NCBI RefSeq assembly: GCF_001887355.1
Contig: NZ_MPIN01000013.1
Coordinates: 192,409 to 256,408 of the forward strand
Direction: 5' to 3'
DNA: 64,000 bases
Source: Cystobacter ferrugineus
GTDB taxonomy: Bacteria > Myxococcota > Myxococcia > Myxococcales > Myxococcaceae
Numbering within the stretch: the first letter of the stretch is position 1; every line of letters starts with the position of its first letter. Positions 7,348 through 15,631 of this stretch are shown in pieces. Both the position numbers and the translations under genes were made by a program. The notes under the pieces were generated by a model, which saw only the letters and a list, made by a program, of their open reading frames with translations, was not told the DNA's origin and searched no databases.

Positions 7348-7943
7348 GACGGATGCTCCCAGTTGCGAGGGTTTGATTCTGGACAAGGCAATGCCTCTCC
7401 GCCGAGCGGGTACGGGAACGCGGGCTTCGGGGAGAAGCGTCGAGCCCGGTAGGGGCCGGTTCGACGGAGCGCAAGGTGCCTCAGTCCCCGGGCTTCTTCG
7501 CGCTCCAATTGCGTCAAATCTCCGCCAATGGCGGTTCACATGTCAGGAATGTCCATCGTGTCACGGGAACGTGTTGTGGAGCGCTCCGCCATGGCCAGCC
7601 AATCCTCTTCAGGGGGTAGAATGCCTGGATAACCAGATTAATATAGGTTAGTCTGATTAATTCATATCGCCGCGGTCAATTTCTTTGAAAGAAAGAACTC
7701 GTATTCCAAAACATCAGGAAGGAAGGTGGGAAGGGAATATCCACCGGGGGTGCTTGACAGGCTGAAAGTGAAACGTTTACCTATTCTTCACTCCCGCGCG
7801 AGAGAAAGAGTTGCATGCGGGCTGGCGGATCGAGGCGGGGTCGGCGTTTCTCTCGCTCATGTTTCGTGCGTGCTTCACGAGGAGCACGTTCCGAACCGGG
7901 CTACCCACCCGGAGCTGCACACCCCCGAAAGAAGAGAGCCCCC
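7348..7943. other. 596-bp intergenic region between divergent genes
   Basis: This gap separates the minus-strand PstS-like gene from the plus-strand protease. It has a GC-rich half next to the PstS gene and an AT-rich stretch at about 7620-7730 with repeated ATTAAT words (AGATTAATATAGG, CTGATTAATTC). No codon-biased ORF or RNA gene was recognised. Both genes' promoters should lie here; the only good hexamer is listed separately. Confidence 0.5.
7754..7783 (+). promoter_or_regulatory. Possible promoter for trypsin-like protease
   Basis: A perfect TTGACA (7754-7759) is followed after 18 nt by TACCTA (7778-7783), a poor -10 match, about 160 bp before the protease ATG. The -35 is convincing and the -10 is not, so this is tentative. 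Confidence 0.25.
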
Positions 7944-9104
7944 ATGTCCCAGCATCACGTCGTCCGGATGATGTTCCTTCTCGGTTCCGCCAGCACGGCC
8001 CTGCTCGTCGGTTGTGGTCCCCAGGAGACCGTGGCCCCCCAGGAGTCCCTCGGTTCGGAGCGCCAGGAGATTGTCGGCGGAAGCGACACGAGCATCTCCA
8101 CCCATCCCTGGCAGATCTCCTTCCAGTCCACGTCGGGTGGCGCCTTCTGCGGGGGCTCCATCCTGAACGAGAGGTGGATCCTCACGGCCCAGCACTGCGT
8201 CTACGAGGGGGGCTTCGCGGTGACCTCGCCGAGCACGGTCCGCATCGCCGCGGGCAGCTCCAAGCTCAGCACGATGGACAGCGAGGGACAGATTCGCTTC
8301 GTCGACGACGTCATCTCCTTCCCGGGCTTCGCGGGCGTGAAGAAGGGCAAGGACGTGGCCCTGCTGCATCTGTCAAAACCGCTCACCTTCAACGGCAAGG
8401 TGGCGCCCATCGCGCTGGCGACCGCGGAGGACGAGGCGGCGGGCCTGACGGCTCCGGGAGTCATCTCCACCGTGACGGGCTGGGGCGACCTCTCCTACAA
8501 CGGCTCCTCTCCGGACGCCTTGCAGGCCGTCGACGTGCCCCTCCTTTCCCACGAGGATGCCGACGCCGCGTACCCGGAGGTCATCACCGCGGATCAGCTC
8601 GGCGCGGGCCTCATCGGCGTGGGCGGCATCGACTCGTGCCATGGTGACAGCGGCGGCCCGCTCATCGTGAGCAAGGGCAGCGGCAAGGTGCTCGCGGGCG
8701 TGGTGAGCTGGGGCAGCGGGTGCGCGGCTCCCGCCTACCCTGGCATGTACGCGCGCGTCTCGCACTTCCAGCCGTGGATCTCCTCCTTCCTGAAGAGGTC
8801 ACCCACCATCCGCCTCAACACGACCAACCAGTCGGGCGGCGAGGGCGCCTGGAAGCACTACCGGGTGAGCATTCCGTCCGGCCTCGAGGTGTTCAACGTG
8901 CACATCTCGGGCGGCACGGGTGACGCCGACCTCTACGTCCAGCACGGCTCCCAGCCGACGGAGGGCAGCTTCACCTGCCGGCCGTACGCCAATGGCAATG
9001 GCGAGACCTGCAGCATCCCCCACCCGGCGGCCGGCACCTGGTTCATCTCGGTCCTGGGCTACTCCTCCTTCTCGGGTTTGAGGGTGCACGCGACCTCCTA
9101 CTGA
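7944..9104 (+). CDS. Trypsin-like serine protease lipoprotein with PPC domain
   Basis: The ATG at 7944 is preceded by AAGAGAG and starts a 386-residue protein with a lipoprotein signal (Cys24 in LLVGC). A short propeptide runs to IVGG (43-46), the usual activation site of S1 proteases. The catalytic triad is His84 (TAQHC), Asp137 (KDVALL) and Ser236 (GDSGGPL). Asp230, six residues before the Ser, occupies the S1-pocket position that gives trypsin its Lys/Arg preference. Residues about 295-386 form a pre-peptidase C-terminal (PPC) domain (GTGDADLYVQHG, AAGTWFISVLGYS). It should act outside the cell or in the envelope. It converges on the RiPP-like cluster, and its Lys/Arg preference would suit the Lys-ending linkers of that cluster's precursor, but this link is only an inference. 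Confidence 0.9.
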   Translation: MSQHHVVRMMFLLGSASTALLVGCGPQETVAPQESLGSERQEIVGGSDTSISTHPWQISFQSTSGGAFCGGSILNERWILTAQHCVYEGGFAVTSPSTVRIAAGSSKLSTMDSEGQIRFVDDVISFPGFAGVKKGKDVALLHLSKPLTFNGKVAPIALATAEDEAAGLTAPGVISTVTGWGDLSYNGSSPDALQAVDVPLLSHEDADAAYPEVITADQLGAGLIGVGGIDSCHGDSGGPLIVSKGSGKVLAGVVSWGSGCAAPAYPGMYARVSHFQPWISSFLKRSPTIRLNTTNQSGGEGAWKHYRVSIPSGLEVFNVHISGGTGDADLYVQHGSQPTEGSFTCRPYANGNGETCSIPHPAAGTWFISVLGYSSFSGLRVHATSY

Positions 9105-9134
9105 GCGCGCCCCCACGGGTCCTCTCGGGACTGA

Positions 9135-9181
9135 ACGCCTCGAGCGGCGCTCCTCGCGCCTGCTCGGGGCGTTTTCCTTTT
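9135..9181 (+). terminator. Intrinsic terminator between convergent genes
   Basis: A 12-bp stem (AACGCCTCGAGC 9135-9146 with GCTCGGGGCGTT 9163-9174, one G-T wobble) is followed by the T-rich run TTTTCCTTTTT. It ends the protease transcript 30 bp after its stop and is near enough to act on the convergent MFS transcript too. Confidence 0.8.
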
Positions 9182-9185
9182 CGGG

Positions 9186-10379
9186 TCAGGTCGCGGCGTG
9201 GGGCCGGGGGCGGTGGATGTGCCAGGAGAGAGCCATCAACCCCAGCACCAGCACCAGGCCCAGGCGCACCAGGCCATTCCACCCCAGCACCGACAGGAGG
9301 GCCCCGGACGTCAGTGACGCCAGGCCGCTGGCGGCGAACACGCACAGATCGTTGATGCCCTGGGCGCGGAAGGACTCGGCGCCCGAGCGGCTGCGCGCCA
9401 CCAGGGTCGTCGCGGTCACGAACACGAAGCACCAGCCCACCCCGATCAACGCCAGCCCGATCAGGTGCCCGCCCAGCCCCTGGACCCAGCTCACCAGGAA
9501 GCCCACGAGCAGGAACAGCAGCCCCAGTGCCTGCACCCGCGCGATCGACATCCTCTTGAGCAGGGCGCCGATCGACAGCGACGGCAGGTACATGCACAGC
9601 AGGTGCAGTTGGATCACCCAGCTCGCCTGCCGGATCATGTACTTCTCCACGCCGCACATCTGGAGCGGCGTGGGCACCATGAGCAGGCTCATCACCAGGA
9701 AGGCTCCGGCCCCCATGGCCACCATCGGCCAATACAGCTCGCGAGCCCGCGCGTCGGAGGCAGTGGAGGCCGCCGCCACGAGCGTGGCCTGGGGTTGCTG
9801 GTACAGCACCAGCGCGAACGCGCCCAGCACCTGGAGCAGCGCCAGGGTCAGCAGGGCCCAGGGCACATAGTCGGAGGTTCTTCCCTCCAGGAGGCTGAAG
9901 AGCGAGATGCCGGGAATGATGCCCGCGGCGCTGGCGAGCTGGATCCGGGTCAGCAGGCGCGGGGCGTTGCCGCTCTGCTGCCCCTCGAGGATGGCGAAAC
10001 GGTACTGCTGGACGAAGGCGCCTTGCAGGCCCACGCCCAGAACGGCCGCGCAGAACAGCCAGAAATCCATCCGGTGCACCGCTCCCGCGGCGAGCACCAG
10101 GCAGCCCGCGCCCAGCAGAGCCGCGGCGATGAAGCACGGCTTGCGTCCGAAGCGGCGCATGAGCTGACTGGCGGGCCAGGTGCCCAGGGACGCGGACAGC
10201 ACCAGCACGGCCACCGGCAGGGTCGCCAGCCGCATGTCCATCGCGAGCCCCTTGCCCACGAGGCCGCCCACGAACTGGATCGCGGACACGCTGGCGATCC
10301 CCACCACCTGACACAGCAGGAGGACGCCCGTGTTGAGGGACGGAGCGGACGCGGCCCACGGAACGCGAAGGCTCAACAC
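9186..10379 (-). CDS. MFS transporter, putative exporter of RiPP-like cluster
   Basis: Starting at GTG 10379, inside the end of the upstream gene (its TGA is 10373-10375), the product has 397 residues, normal for a major facilitator. About 11-12 hydrophobic segments are visible, among them TGVLLLCQVVGIASVSAIQF, LPVAVLVLSASLG and the C-terminal LVRLGLVLVLGLMAL. The cytoplasmic loop ASQLMRRFGRKPC matches the MFS loop 2-3 motif (G-x-x-x-D/R-R-x-G-R-K/R). The frame can be extended upstream, but that part reads through the preceding gene and looks non-coding. It is the last gene of the tightly coupled set with the DEVWH protein and the adenylating enzyme, so export of the matured peptide is the natural guess. 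The substrate is not shown by sequence. Confidence 0.85.
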   Translation of the reverse strand: MLSLRVPWAASAPSLNTGVLLLCQVVGIASVSAIQFVGGLVGKGLAMDMRLATLPVAVLVLSASLGTWPASQLMRRFGRKPCFIAAALLGAGCLVLAAGAVHRMDFWLFCAAVLGVGLQGAFVQQYRFAILEGQQSGNAPRLLTRIQLASAAGIIPGISLFSLLEGRTSDYVPWALLTLALLQVLGAFALVLYQQPQATLVAAASTASDARARELYWPMVAMGAGAFLVMSLLMVPTPLQMCGVEKYMIRQASWVIQLHLLCMYLPSLSIGALLKRMSIARVQALGLLFLLVGFLVSWVQGLGGHLIGLALIGVGWCFVFVTATTLVARSRSGAESFRAQGINDLCVFAASGLASLTSGALLSVLGWNGLVRLGLVLVLGLMALSWHIHRPRPHAAT

Positions 10380-10921
10380 GCGCGCTCCGCGTCGGGTGGA
10401 GCGGAGGACGGAGCCTCCGCCTCGAGCTCCGCGATCTCCTCCAGGGAGAGGCCCATCCGCTGGTGGAGGAAGCGCACCATGGTCCAGTGCGGCAGCGCCC
10501 CCTCGTCGAAGGGACCGAACTCCTCGCGATACAGCGGCAGCCAGCGCAAGGCCTCCTCCAGCATCCGCTCCCGGTTGGGTTGCCCCTGCTGGTAGTCCTC
10601 GTACGGCAGGCTGCGGTGGTGGATGAAGAAGCGCCCCGGGAGCCGCTCCTCGCACAGCTCCCGGTACTCCCGGGTCTGGAGGATCAGATAGTGCCAGACC
10701 TCGTCAATGGCCTGCTCGACCGGCAGGAACAGCCCGACCAGCCGCTCCGGGTAGCGGGAGAGCAGATACAGGTATCTCAGACATTCGAGGAGCTGACGCT
10801 CGACGTATGCGGGCTCCGCTCCGGTGGTGAGCACGAAGTGCCGGACCACGCCGGAGTAGAGCGACTCATCGAGCAGGCCCTTCAGCGTGGCGGTCGTCAC
10901 CTTGGCGGAATGGGGCTTCAC
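10373..10921 (-). CDS. DEVWH/HH-motif protein (glycine-rich-domain-protein-like)
   Basis: This 182-residue soluble protein starts at GTG 10921, in a 4-base GTGA overlap with the stop of the adenylating enzyme, and its own end overlaps the MFS start. The central segment AIDEVWHYLILQTREYRELC (71-90) followed by FFIHH (98-102) matches a pattern known from GRDP/DUF1399-like proteins (D-x-VWH-x-x-x-x-x-T-x-x-Y-x-x-C...HH). The conserved Asp, His and Cys could bind a metal, though family function is not established. Residues 1-65 are helical. The overlapping gene order says it works with the adenylating enzyme, perhaps as a modification enzyme or carrier for the precursor peptide. That function is inference; the motif is what is seen. 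Confidence 0.7.
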   Translation of the reverse strand: MKPHSAKVTTATLKGLLDESLYSGVVRHFVLTTGAEPAYVERQLLECLRYLYLLSRYPERLVGLFLPVEQAIDEVWHYLILQTREYRELCEERLPGRFFIHHRSLPYEDYQQGQPNRERMLEEALRWLPLYREEFGPFDEGALPHWTMVRFLHQRMGLSLEEIAELEAEAPSSAPPDAERAC

Positions 10922-12189
10922 GGCTCACCTCGTCCAGTCATCTCATCCTCCCGTACCAGCCACGCATACTTCCCGGACTTGCCGATCGCGATGTGAGCAC
11001 GATGCTCGAGGACGCTCTCGAGCCCGGTGGCCTCCAGGATGCCTTGCCGCAGTGCCTGTGCCGCGGCCGGCTCGATGGGTCCGCCGTCGAAGGTCGTGTA
11101 CAGCAAGCGCGCCCGCCGGGGTGCCTCCAGGTGGAGCTGATAGACGAAGATGGAGGGGGTGGCGTCGGCGATCCAATCGTCGAGATGGGCCTGGGAGATC
11201 ACCCCTCCATGTTCGAGCCGCAGCAGTTCCTTCTCCCTCCCGCAGAACCGGCGGATCCGCAGCGGGTCGGGGGAGCCATCGAGCGTCTCGGCGCAATCGC
11301 CAGAGCGATAGCGGATCAGCGGCATGTAGGGGTTGCGCAGGCTCGAGACGATGATGCTGTAGATCTTGCTGCCCTTTTCGACGGGAATCAGCTCCAGGTG
11401 CATCTTGTCGAGATAGGGCCAGTACCGCCCGTGACGGTCACTGAAATACAGATATCCCAGCTCGGTGCTGCCAAACAGGTCGATGACCGGGCACTCGAAG
11501 TGTTGCCGCAGGAAGCGCTGGACGTTCCTCGGCGTGTACTCGTAGGCGTGAATGATGCTGGCGGGCTCCGGGAAGTGCTGCCACAGGCCCCAGTCCAGGG
11601 CCTTCCGCACCAGATGCGCGAGGTGGTAGCTGTCGCAGTCGAGGTGATACCAACCCCGCGGATGCGCCTGCTGGATGGTGCTCATCTCCTCGAGCATGCG
11701 CTCCACCTCGCCGCGCTCCCAGAGCGCCGGATCGAGCCGCAGGTTGAGATAGAGCGTGCGTGGATCGAGCCGCCGCTCCTCGAGGCTCGGAAGGGCGGGG
11801 ACCTCGACGCCGCGCTTTCTCGCGTTGAGCCGCGCCACGTGCTCGGTCGCCAGCACCGTGGTGATCGACACTCGCTGGCAGTCCTGTTTCCAGGTGTCGG
11901 AGATGTCGGGATGCTCGCTCCAGAGCTGGTAATACGATTTCAACAAGAAGAAGGGTGGGCGGATGATCTGCATCCGCGCGTGGTTGGTTCCCGTCGAGAG
12001 CACGAACTCCGCCGCGCCTTCCTTCAGCGCATCGGCGAGCCTCGGGGTCATCCAATTGTCCGGGAATCCCCTGGCGATCTCCGGCTTCTCCAGGATCGGG
12101 AAGTACCCCTGCTCGATCGACGGGCGATAGATGGGGATGTCCCTGACCTGATCGATCATCTCGGCGAAAGTCTGTTTATGGGCGTTCAT
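10918..12189 (-). CDS. PaaK/coenzyme F390 synthetase-like adenylate-forming enzyme
   Basis: The 423-residue product starts at ATG 12189 (MNAHKQTFAEM). It has the sequence landmarks of the phenylacetate-CoA ligase/F390-synthetase branch of adenylate-forming enzymes: STGTN at 66-70 for the ATP phosphates, FGSTELG at 239-245 (A5-like) and RYRSGD at 293-298 (A7/A8-like), then a short C-terminal domain (EATGLESVLEHRAHIAIGKSGKYAW). Such enzymes activate a carboxylate as an acyl-AMP and pass it to a thiol, amine or alcohol. It is the first gene after the repeated-core precursor, from which it is separated by a strong hairpin, and it overlaps the next gene. A role in acylating the peptide, or in activating its carboxylates, is the simplest idea. 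Substrate unknown. Confidence 0.82.
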   Translation of the reverse strand: MNAHKQTFAEMIDQVRDIPIYRPSIEQGYFPILEKPEIARGFPDNWMTPRLADALKEGAAEFVLSTGTNHARMQIIRPPFFLLKSYYQLWSEHPDISDTWKQDCQRVSITTVLATEHVARLNARKRGVEVPALPSLEERRLDPRTLYLNLRLDPALWERGEVERMLEEMSTIQQAHPRGWYHLDCDSYHLAHLVRKALDWGLWQHFPEPASIIHAYEYTPRNVQRFLRQHFECPVIDLFGSTELGYLYFSDRHGRYWPYLDKMHLELIPVEKGSKIYSIIVSSLRNPYMPLIRYRSGDCAETLDGSPDPLRIRRFCGREKELLRLEHGGVISQAHLDDWIADATPSIFVYQLHLEAPRRARLLYTTFDGGPIEPAAAQALRQGILEATGLESVLEHRAHIAIGKSGKYAWLVREDEMTGRGEP

Positions 12190-12257
12190 CGGTTGAGTCT
12201 GGGAAAGACAGTCGAACGGGCCATCCAGAAGTGTTGCACCCACCCATCGAAGTGGCC

Positions 12258-12307
12258 GCGAGCGCGGCGGGCATCCACGAGGATGTGGATGCGCTCGCCG
12301 CGCTCGC
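12258..12307 (-). promoter_or_regulatory. Strong hairpin between precursor gene and maturation genes
   Basis: GCGAGCGCGGCG plus GCATCCAC on one arm pairs with GTGGATGC and CGCCGCGCTCGC on the other, a 20-bp stem with one small bulge and a 6-nt loop (GAGGAT). It starts 18 bp after the precursor stop and lies 69 bp before the next start codon. No T-run follows. Such stems between a RiPP precursor and its enzymes often reduce read-through or protect the precursor mRNA, giving an excess of substrate peptide. Confidence 0.65.
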
Positions 12308-12324
12308 GACCCGGGACGACCCTC

Positions 12325-12528
12325 TCAGCTGATGCAGCCCGCCTTGGAGGAGATGCAGCCCGCCTTCGCGGGGCCGGAGATACAGCCAGCCTTCGCGTGT
12401 CCAGAGATACAGCCAGCCTTCGCGGGACCGGAGATGCAGCCGGCGTCCACCGCCTCGGCGGGCGAGTTGGCTTCCACCCACTGGTTCCACAGTTGATCCT
12501 GGGCGAGCTGGCGAATCAGGTGCTTCAT
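12325..12528 (-). CDS. Putative RiPP precursor peptide with five AGCIS core units
   Basis: The 67-residue ORF starts at ATG 12528 with GGAGG 9 nt upstream. Residues 1-28 (starting MKHLIRQLAQDQLWNQW) form a helical, Gln/Trp-containing leader. Residues 29-67 are five copies of AGCIS, the first three followed by GPAK, GHAK and GPAK, the fourth by SK, and the fifth ending the protein. Every unit has one Cys and at least one Ser, the usual substrates for RiPP modification. The strong ribosome site, the promoter-like sequence upstream, the hairpin downstream and the overlapping enzyme/exporter genes all favour a real expressed gene. No lanthipeptide synthetase, YcaO or radical SAM gene is nearby, so the chemistry would differ from the main classes. 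A Cys-rich metal-binding peptide is the main alternative. Confidence 0.8.
   Translation of the reverse strand: MKHLIRQLAQDQLWNQWVEANSPAEAVDAGCISGPAKAGCISGHAKAGCISGPAKAGCISSKAGCIS
12328..12444 (-). repeat. Tandem core repeats of precursor peptide (27, 27, 27, 21, 15 bp)
   Basis: Units lie at 12418-12444, 12391-12417, 12364-12390, 12343-12363 and 12328-12342. The DNA of units differs at several third-codon positions (GCC/GCT/GCG, TGC/TGT, TCC/TCT/AGC) while AGCIS stays fixed. This shows selection on the peptide rather than very recent slippage. Confidence 0.85.
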
Positions 12529-12658
12529 TTGGATGAACCTCCGAGAATGGACTGGTGGATGATGCGTATTGACCACACTTCCACTGCTCGCACCCCGCTG
12601 CGATCGGGTGCTCCACGACCGGGCGGACCGGCTCTTCTTGTTGCCTGGTCGTATGTTT

Positions 12659-12687
12659 GTTTTAAGGACCAGGCACTTGAAGGTCAA
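12659..12687 (-). promoter_or_regulatory. Sigma-70-like promoter for RiPP-like cluster
   Basis: On the minus strand TTGACC (12682-12687) and TAAAAC (12659-12664) are separated by 17 bp, in a locally AT-rich stretch about 130 bp before the precursor ATG. Five of six and four of six positions match consensus. It lies just after the monooxygenase stop, so the cluster may be transcribed apart from that gene. Confidence 0.5.
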
Positions 12688-12735
12688 GGATTTATTTGAT
12701 TGCAGTGATGACGCGAATTGTCATTACTCCATGGG

Positions 12736-14478
<1,743 letters not shown>

Positions 14479-14677
14479 CTATAGCGACTGGTTTTTGCGC
14501 AAAGGACTTCCGGGGTAGGCGTGGATGAATTGTTTCACCGGAATATGTCTTGTCGACTACCAGACATTCATGATAGGTATGGAAAACAAGCAATTAAAGG
14601 CAAATGGATTGACATCGGCCTGGGAGGCGTGAGCACCACGCGTCCCCAGGTGCGCGAACAGCCCCCTGCCGGAGTGC

Positions 14678-15631
14678 CTACTTCTTCGCCACCGACAGCA
14701 CCACCTTGCCGCGGCCGTGCCCCGAGTCGAGCTGCCGGTGCGCCTCGGCCACGCTCTCCAGCGGCAGCACGCGCTGGATGATGGGCCGCAAGTGCTTGCG
14801 CTCGATGAGGGCGGTCATCTCTTCCAGGCGGCGGCCCTCGCGCACGAGGAAGACGCCGTGCAGGGTGAGGTTGCGCGGGTAGAAGGCCGACACGTCCCCG
14901 TTGAAGCCGAGGATGGTGGCGATGCGGCCGAACGGACGGGTGGCCGGCATGCTGGGGATGACGTTCTTGCCCACCGTGTCGAAGACGGCATCCACTCCCT
15001 GGCCGCCCGTCTCGCGCAGGGCCACCTGGGCGGGGTCCTCGCGCTGGTAGTCGATGACCACGTCCGCACCCAGCTCGCGCAAGGTCTCCAGGTTGCCCGA
15101 GCCCGCGGTGGCGAGCACTCGCGCTCCGGCCGCCTTGGCGATCTGCACCGCGAACGAGCCCACGCCCCCGGCTCCCCCGTGGATGAGCACTGTCTCCCCG
15201 ACGCGCACTTGGAGCCGCCGCACGATGGCGTCCCACGCGGTGCCTCCGGCGAGCGGAATCGCCGCGGCCTCCTCATGCGAGAGGCTCGGCGGCTTCCTCG
15301 CGATGATGCGGGCCTCCACCACCGTCAGCTCCGCATAGGTGCCATGGGGGTTGTGGAAGATCTCCGGGGTGAAGAAGACCTCGTCGCCGGACTTGAAGCC
15401 GGTGACGCCGGGGCCCACCTGCTCGATGACACCCGAGGCGTCGTAGCCGAGGACGACGGGGGGCTGGAGTCCGGCCCAGGAGCCGTCCTGGCGCAGCTTG
15501 GCGTCCACCGGGTTGGTGCCCGAGGCGATGACGCGCACGAGCACCTGGCCAGGGCCGGGCGTGGGGGTGGGGACGTCGCGGACTTCGAGGAGTTCAGGAC
15601 CGCCGAAGCGGGGGAGGACGATGGCGCGCAT
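14678..15631 (-). CDS. NADPH:quinone oxidoreductase-like zinc-free medium-chain reductase
   Basis: The ATG at 15631 (MRAIVLPRFGGPELLEVRDV) gives 317 residues and is preferred over longer in-frame starts because the family begins exactly here. It has the GroES-like fold (GTNPVDAKLR, GYDASGVIEQVGPGV) and the NADPH-binding loop HGGAGGVGSFAVQIAKAAGA, then GVDAVFDTVG. The zinc-binding cysteines of true alcohol dehydrogenases are absent, as in quinone oxidoreductase/zeta-crystallin. It reduces quinones or enones with NADPH in the cytoplasm. It is divergent from the VOC-family gene 180 bp away; the AT-rich 14440-14677 stretch downstream holds the monooxygenase promoter region and no gene. Confidence 0.88.
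   Translation of the reverse strand: MRAIVLPRFGGPELLEVRDVPTPTPGPGQVLVRVIASGTNPVDAKLRQDGSWAGLQPPVVLGYDASGVIEQVGPGVTGFKSGDEVFFTPEIFHNPHGTYAELTVVEARIIARKPPSLSHEEAAAIPLAGGTAWDAIVRRLQVRVGETVLIHGGAGGVGSFAVQIAKAAGARVLATAGSGNLETLRELGADVVIDYQREDPAQVALRETGGQGVDAVFDTVGKNVIPSMPATRPFGRIATILGFNGDVSAFYPRNLTLHGVFLVREGRRLEEMTALIERKHLRPIIQRVLPLESVAEAHRQLDSGHGRGKVVLSVAKK

Follow-up and report, generated by a model that had tools for sequence, protein, structure and literature searches.

Ustiloxin and phomopsin precursors contain short, near-identical cores separated by basic residues, and these dikaritins are fungal and secreted, with Kex2-type protease cleavage and DUF3328 oxidation as part of their maturation. 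Cyanobactins are made with a YcaO-type enzyme. Among adenylating enzymes, the PaaK-like AMP ligases NatL2, AjiA1, ClxA and BagE/FevW act on small aromatic acids, and we know of no ribosomal precursor that is used by any of them. Precursors with several cores are called rare in one microviridin study (PMC5934393), which names cyanobactins, cyclotides, orbitides, ustiloxins and phomopsins besides its own microviridin case and gives an ATP-grasp ligase as the enzyme of microviridins.

The locus described here lies in a window of 64,000 nucleotides (the whole stretch of DNA analyzed) from Cystobacter ferrugineus (RefSeq assembly GCF_001887355.1, contig NZ_MPIN01000013.1, positions 192,409 to 256,408). 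Its precursor is like those of the ustiloxins and phomopsins in holding several cores, and like those of the multicore microviridins and cyanobactins in that one leader and several cores are combined in one bacterial precursor (PMC5934393). Unlike the dikaritins, the system is bacterial, has a single Lys rather than a dibasic site in most linkers, and comes with an adenylase and a putatively GRDP-like protein. Pfam scans of ten window proteins found neither a DUF3328-type or Kex2-type family, nor a YcaO or ATP-grasp (graspetide) enzyme, nor a leader-binding domain; neighbours in the other loci were grouped by similarity, and a few of them were scanned for families. The adenylase resembles NatL2, AjiA1, ClxA and BagE/FevW in predicted fold or by a weak family match. 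The cassette belongs to none of the RiPP classes against which it was tested and works like a multicore RiPP, and among the matches listed we found no open paper describing the GCIS motif, the enzyme set or the link to carbonic anhydrase that is presented below.

The precursor gene and its repeated units

The precursor gene occupies window positions 12325 to 12528 on the minus strand, stop included, and encodes 67 residues. Read from the sequence, it has an ATG at 12528, a stop at 12325-12327 and a GGAGG 9 nt 5' of the ATG. The leader comprises approximately residues 1-28 (MKHLIRQLAQDQLWNQWVEANSPAEAVD; 12445 to 12528, minus strand). It is followed by a core region made up of the last 39 residues (12328 to 12444, minus strand; unit comparison and alignment), in which five AGCIS units at 12444-12430, 12417-12403, 12390-12376, 12363-12349 and 12342-12328 are joined, in this order, by the linkers GPAK, GHAK, GPAK and SK. 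The original prediction had placed five such units in exactly this interval and had named these four Lys-ending linkers, and it was accurate in both respects.

The five units are written in different codons: GCC, GCT, GCT, GCG and GCG for Ala, TGC, TGT, TGT, TGC and TGC for Cys, and TCC, TCT, TCC, TCC and AGC for Ser. The 21 codon pairs that differ from unit to unit are synonymous without exception, as compared to an expected 26% of single changes in these codons, which strongly supports the earlier suggestion that selection acts on the peptide. The commonest 5-mer of the precursor is present in five copies, against at most three in 100,000 shuffles of the peptide. At the DNA level the unit region repeats in tandem (period 27, 3.4 copies, 86% matches); the AGCIS units are therefore products of duplication that were afterwards maintained at the protein level. 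Chance or a plain DNA repeat as the origin of the units was ruled out by the shuffles, the exclusively synonymous differences and the homologues described below. An open reading frame on the plus strand (12332-12496) was also set aside, because the pattern of selection suits the minus-strand frame. Upstream of the precursor, a 7-base inverted repeat noticed by eye (CCTGGTC...GACCAGG, 12644-12673) is a possible regulator site.

Distribution of the precursor family

Six more full-length homologues, 66-100% identical, were found among 116 genomes (that of the window included), two of them in the same genus (100 and 99%) and the remainder, four in number, outside the genus but within the family (75-86% in alignment). 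A profile search of the window's family showed the precursor in 7 of 96 genomes. An eighth profile match (G159, E 5e-4) was dropped because a different gene runs across it in the opposite orientation. The weak matches of the search in 116 genomes were dropped as well: seven lie below 1e-16 and the next at 3e-4, and at E values up to 1 a match is obtained in 105 of the 116 genomes. When 84,980 species genomes were scanned with the adenylase alignment, seven loci were recovered, from three Sorangium cellulosum, two Streptomyces, one Amycolatopsis and one Saccharopolyspora, and all seven have a GCIS precursor upstream of the adenylase and the gene of a 182-aa protein downstream. The precursor profile alone detected the family in 49 of 392 Streptomyces genomes, or about one in eight of those sampled, and in 11 of 390 Pseudonocardiaceae genomes, counts which include the query genomes G198, G200 and G201. 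Plasmid records contained no adenylase homologue at E 1e-20, and no model for the precursors was found in the family libraries, where they gave chance-level matches only (best E 0.018). In a quick tree of the adenylases (SH-aLRT support, midpoint root) the ten myxobacterial sequences form one group, placed with the Pseudonocardiaceae rather than with Streptomyces, as would fit transfer between phyla.

Conserved and variable parts of the precursors

We compared 71 precursors (70 distinct) from the window's family, Sorangium, Streptomyces and Pseudonocardiaceae, 57 of which were read from the profile searches of the latter two groups; the start Met was assigned by us. They hold 220 units, 207 of the form GCIS and 13 of the form GCVS, and none of the 71 has a Cys outside these units. 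The number of units per precursor is two in 13 precursors, three in 46, four in 6, five in 5 and seven in one. Several core copies, in a number that differs among homologues, are thus a general property of the family, and the multicore design proposed for the window precursor is strongly supported. The original prediction expected unit number to vary among homologues while the core and the Lys stay, as is observed, and it took AGCIS as the constant unit. Of the latter, the GC[IV]S part is kept and the leading Ala varies, so AGCIS is to be seen as a local form of GC[IV]S. No homologue devoid of repeated units occurs among the 71, but most were found by a profile that holds both leader and repeats, favours conserved members and could miss relatives with one unit.

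Among the 149 non-first units, 148 have a Lys at the second position before the Gly, so that the Lys linkers foreseen for homologues are present throughout except in a single linker (L138). In first units it is found in all 61 actinobacterial precursors and in one of the ten myxobacterial ones, the others having Asp or Glu. Any of A, S, T, N, D, E and Q can occupy the position between Lys and Gly, and the remainder of the linker varies by group in length (1-7 residues) and in sequence (AAPK 46 times, ATPK 15, RK 12, GPAK 7, and others). Further exceptions to the general pattern are a decayed last unit in L141 and a decayed first unit in L051. In the leader, L4, W14, W17 and N21 are invariant in all 71 precursors, as is M1, by construction.

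For an estimate of selection, 23 Streptomyces precursors of one length were compared in 253 non-independent pairs, in which the core shows a pN of 0.000 against a pS of 0.43 and the Lys does not change at all. The leader (residues 2-22) has a pN/pS of 0.36 and the linkers one of 0.22, as compared to 1.3 at the position before Gly. Because they are constrained within Streptomyces, the linkers may be more than spacers. Myxococcaceae precursors have no non-synonymous difference in the core in the four comparable pairs of 21. The family accordingly consists of encoded precursors in which a leader with invariant residues is followed by a separate core under purifying selection, as is usual for a RiPP.

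The cassette and its enzymes

Precursor, adenylase and GRDP-like gene follow each other on one strand and in this order in all 68 loci examined, 54 of which were found through the precursor profile alone; two candidate modifying enzymes are therefore encoded with the precursor at every one of these loci. In the seven loci of the window's family the precursor lies between a flavin monooxygenase gene, which is inverted in three of them, and the genes of the adenylase, the 182-aa protein and an MFS transporter, all downstream on the same strand. The other window genes tested are shared with the four other-genus loci only in the form of one 33% reductase match (G046), which indicates that the cassette block itself is what is conserved.

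A hairpin is predicted between the precursor stop and the adenylase gene (12244 to 12324, minus strand; MFE -57.8, z -6.9 against 40 shuffles) and is a possible attenuator. Hairpins 3' of the precursor with z below -2 were obtained in 59 of the 68 loci (40 shuffles each, median -3.5), and structures of this kind could allow more precursor than enzyme to be made. Rfam gave no match at gathering score in window positions 8500-15000.

The adenylase gene (10918 to 12189, minus strand, ATG at 12189) encodes a PaaK-like adenylate-forming enzyme of 423 aa, as judged from its fold match and conserved motifs. A longer version starting from GTG at 12243 was set aside because, of the four loci in the family's other genera, three lack any start codon 5' of the ATG. 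The AlphaFold2 model has a pLDDT of 76, with values below 50 over most of residues 41-81, and a Foldseek search with it returned PaaK1 first (2y27, E 1.5e-14, TM 0.60), with AjiA1, NatL2 and ClxA lower among the PDB matches at 15-17% identity. The stretches FGSTELGY and YRSGD are invariant in 14 aligned adenylases, and STGTNHARM and GKSGKYAW nearly so; we take all four to be adenylation motifs. Models of AMP-dependent ligases match weakly and far below their cut-offs (NF045666 with 38.7 bits against 300, PF00501 with 12.2 against 29.9), and the NCBIfam model for BagE/FevW matches weakly in 4 of the 14 members. By modelled fold and motifs the cassette enzyme is predicted to be PaaK-like and adenylate-forming, with scores below the cut-offs of its nearest curated families.

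The GTG start of the third gene (10373 to 10921, minus strand) overlaps the adenylase stop. Its product of 182 aa has no credible Pfam or NCBIfam match, the GRDP-like model PF07173 being matched by none of 14 members, and its structural model (pLDDT 73.5) gave no match in the PDB at an E value of 0.001 or below. With hhalign, the family is joined to three distant bacterial relatives with a probability of 97 over 95 columns, and the pattern D-E-x-W-H ... Y ... C ... H is common to all of them. One of the three relatives weakly matches PF07173 (19.2 bits against a cut-off of 22.7). Beside the GRDP-like relatives L046, L047 and L048 neither a GCIS precursor nor an adenylase of this kind was seen; L046 comes from the window's own genome (G000, contig 27).

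Downstream of the three genes lies a gene for an MFS-type transporter (9186 to 10379, minus strand; 397 aa with GTG at 10379 taken as the start), whose Pfam MFS_1 match of 30.3 bits is below the cut-off of 33.4. An MFS gene is present within 4 kb downstream in 53 of the 68 loci, and the queries used found no transporter in this interval in the other 15. The query had been trimmed, residues 1-70 of the untrimmed version matching another frame of the GRDP-like gene. The cassette-linked transporters of myxobacteria and Streptomyces belong to one similarity group and those of Pseudonocardiaceae to another. The flavin monooxygenase of Baeyer-Villiger/FMO type (567 aa; 12736 to 14439, minus strand; Pfam and NCBIfam) has a counterpart near the cassette in 18 of the 68 loci, that is in 10 of 10 myxobacterial, 7 of 11 Pseudonocardiaceae and 1 of 47 Streptomyces loci.

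No peptidase gene common to the loci was found when neighbours were grouped by similarity. The window encodes a trypsin-like protease with a pre-peptidase C-terminal domain (7815-9104, plus strand; Pfam), which was considered as the maturation protease and rejected: in the 20-kb stretches compared it is present in G003, one of the two genus relatives with the cassette, and absent from G002 and four others.

Proposed pathway

It is very likely that the precursor and its neighbours constitute a RiPP-like precursor with its enzymes. The fuller reading that we favour, with somewhat better than even confidence, is that of a multicore, RiPP-like pathway: the adenylase would modify the KxGC[IV]S units, and these would then be cut apart and exported; we are less confident of each chemical detail than of this outline. 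A ribosomal peptide pathway is proposed because a leader, strictly selected repeated cores and an adjacent ATP-using enzyme occur together, often with an exporter of the small-molecule type. The conserved N-terminal leader would bring the precursor to the PaaK-like enzyme and its GRDP-like partner, and the two may then act on each K-x-G-C-[IV]-S unit. The adenylase would most likely activate a carboxylic acid as an AMP ester and acylate the unit at Cys or Ser, although the acylation, like the acyl group, is a guess. Host peptidases would cut the chain at the Lys before each unit, in line with the cleavage after Lys and the release of five short peptides that the original prediction envisaged, and would trim the ends, so that several copies of one GCIS-derived small molecule might be obtained from each precursor, and the MFS transporter is the candidate for export of the product.

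The first units of myxobacterial precursors are kept as cores in spite of having no Lys, which suggests cleavage at the Lys rather than modification of it. Its fixed spacing would also suit a recognition motif. That 9 of the 10 myxobacterial precursors have a first unit devoid of this Lys was counted against the pathway, and so were the lack of a peptidase gene common to the loci and of a leader-binding domain in the proteins scanned, the low family scores of the adenylase, the GRDP-like protein's lack of a fold match, and the 15 loci for which the queries gave no downstream transporter.

A variant of the same multicore pathway is that the adenylase activates the peptide's own carboxyl group, that of the Ser which ends the cleaved unit, and that this is closed onto the Cys thiol or onto an amine to give a small ring. 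Adenylates are competent for ring closure of this kind in other peptide pathways, and 59 of the 71 precursors end exactly in C[IV]S. However, 9 of the 11 precursors from Pseudonocardiaceae and 3 of the 50 from Streptomyces end otherwise, and activating enzymes for small acids are found among the nearest solved folds, so that we consider ring closure improbable and prefer acylation of the unit.

The chances appear to us evenly balanced that the cassette represents a new class of multicore RiPP common to Myxococcota and Actinomycetota. Its marks would be K-x-G-C-[IV]-S cores, a peptide-modifying PaaK-like AMP ligase and a GRDP-like partner, and in Streptomyces it would have a connection to bicarbonate handling. 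If the proposed pathway is correct, a family of adenylating enzymes known for small acids also works on ribosomal peptides, and the GRDP-like family gains a biochemical setting. Most of the interest of the locus lies in the enzyme genes beside the precursor, of which the original prediction made no mention. The cassette is compact, with three genes, and because the gene reveals the core, existing cultures can be searched for candidate products.

Carbonic anhydrase and SulP genes near the cassette

Of the 58 actinobacterial loci, 36 have a gene for a beta-carbonic anhydrase and/or a SulP-type transporter whose start is no more than 6 kb away from that of the adenylase (Pfam scores in example neighbours: Pro_CA 144 bits, Sulfate_transp 194 bits). 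These genes lie downstream in 21 loci, upstream on the same strand in 7 (one of them as a fused gene), far upstream and inverted in 6, and near upstream and inverted in 2; examples are L117, L125, L115 and L171 in Streptomyces and L133 in Pseudonocardiaceae. On the adenylase tree they require at least three changes of arrangement and at least eight of presence. As 42 sampled Streptomyces genomes (5.5-11.3 Mb; 22 with and 20 without the cassette) contain 0-6 SulP homologues each, we calculate that a SulP gene would be found within 6 kb by chance at less than 1% of loci.

The link could point to a target or a building block. One possible explanation is that the product inhibits carbonic anhydrase or bicarbonate uptake, in which case the linked genes would be self-resistance copies, or else that they supply bicarbonate as a building block. 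The frequency of the association, on different sides and strands of the cassette, and its small probability by chance are in favour of such a connection. On the other hand, no such genes lie near any of the 10 myxobacterial loci, just one of the 11 loci from Pseudonocardiaceae has them, and about 10 of the 20 cassette-free Streptomyces genomes have a comparable, unfused pair as well (by reading of coordinates). For these reasons the link looks real but optional, and we regard the explanation as unlikely, to about the same degree as ring closure; it would in any case supplement the multicore pathway rather than replace it.

A formyltransferase/HypX-type-like gene (named by reading) was also observed upstream of the cassette, in opposite orientation to it, at 11 of the 47 Streptomyces loci (L114, L117, L120, L121, L128, L129, L153, L154, L157, L165 and L169).

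Other possible roles of the repeated cysteines

Instead of being released, the peptide might serve as a reusable thiol scaffold that bears acyl thioesters on its Cys residues in the manner of a carrier protein, and would then not be the product. Adenylate-forming enzymes of the PaaK-like type often load thiols, every Cys of the 71 precursors is within a near-identical GC[IV]S unit encoded beside such an enzyme, and the Streptomyces linkers are constrained (pN/pS 0.22). Yet in a carrier one would not expect a Lys to keep its spacing before units with linkers that vary by group in length and sequence, and no acyl-elongating or acyl-releasing enzyme is common to all loci. This makes a scaffold a slightly poorer prospect than the two explanations above, and we retain the multicore pathway with released cores. 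Least probable, and in our view very unlikely, is that the units bind metal or act as a thiol buffer while the adenylase and the GRDP-like protein act on something else, for the regular spacing of the repeated Cys and the conserved His, Asp and Cys of the GRDP-like protein are offset by the presence of only two Cys in 13 of the 71 precursors, the lack of His or paired Cys in the units, and the adenylase gene next to the precursor at all loci examined.

Five distant relatives of the adenylase were noted in Myxococcota, one of them (L068) in the window's own genome. Four of the five (L064, L065, L066 and L068) adjoin, by reading, a cysteine-desulfurase-like gene, and at L064 part of a radical SAM/SPASM-like protein was recognized nearby by eye. 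The desulfurase-linked relatives possibly belong to another peptide pathway or to a sulfur-transfer pathway.
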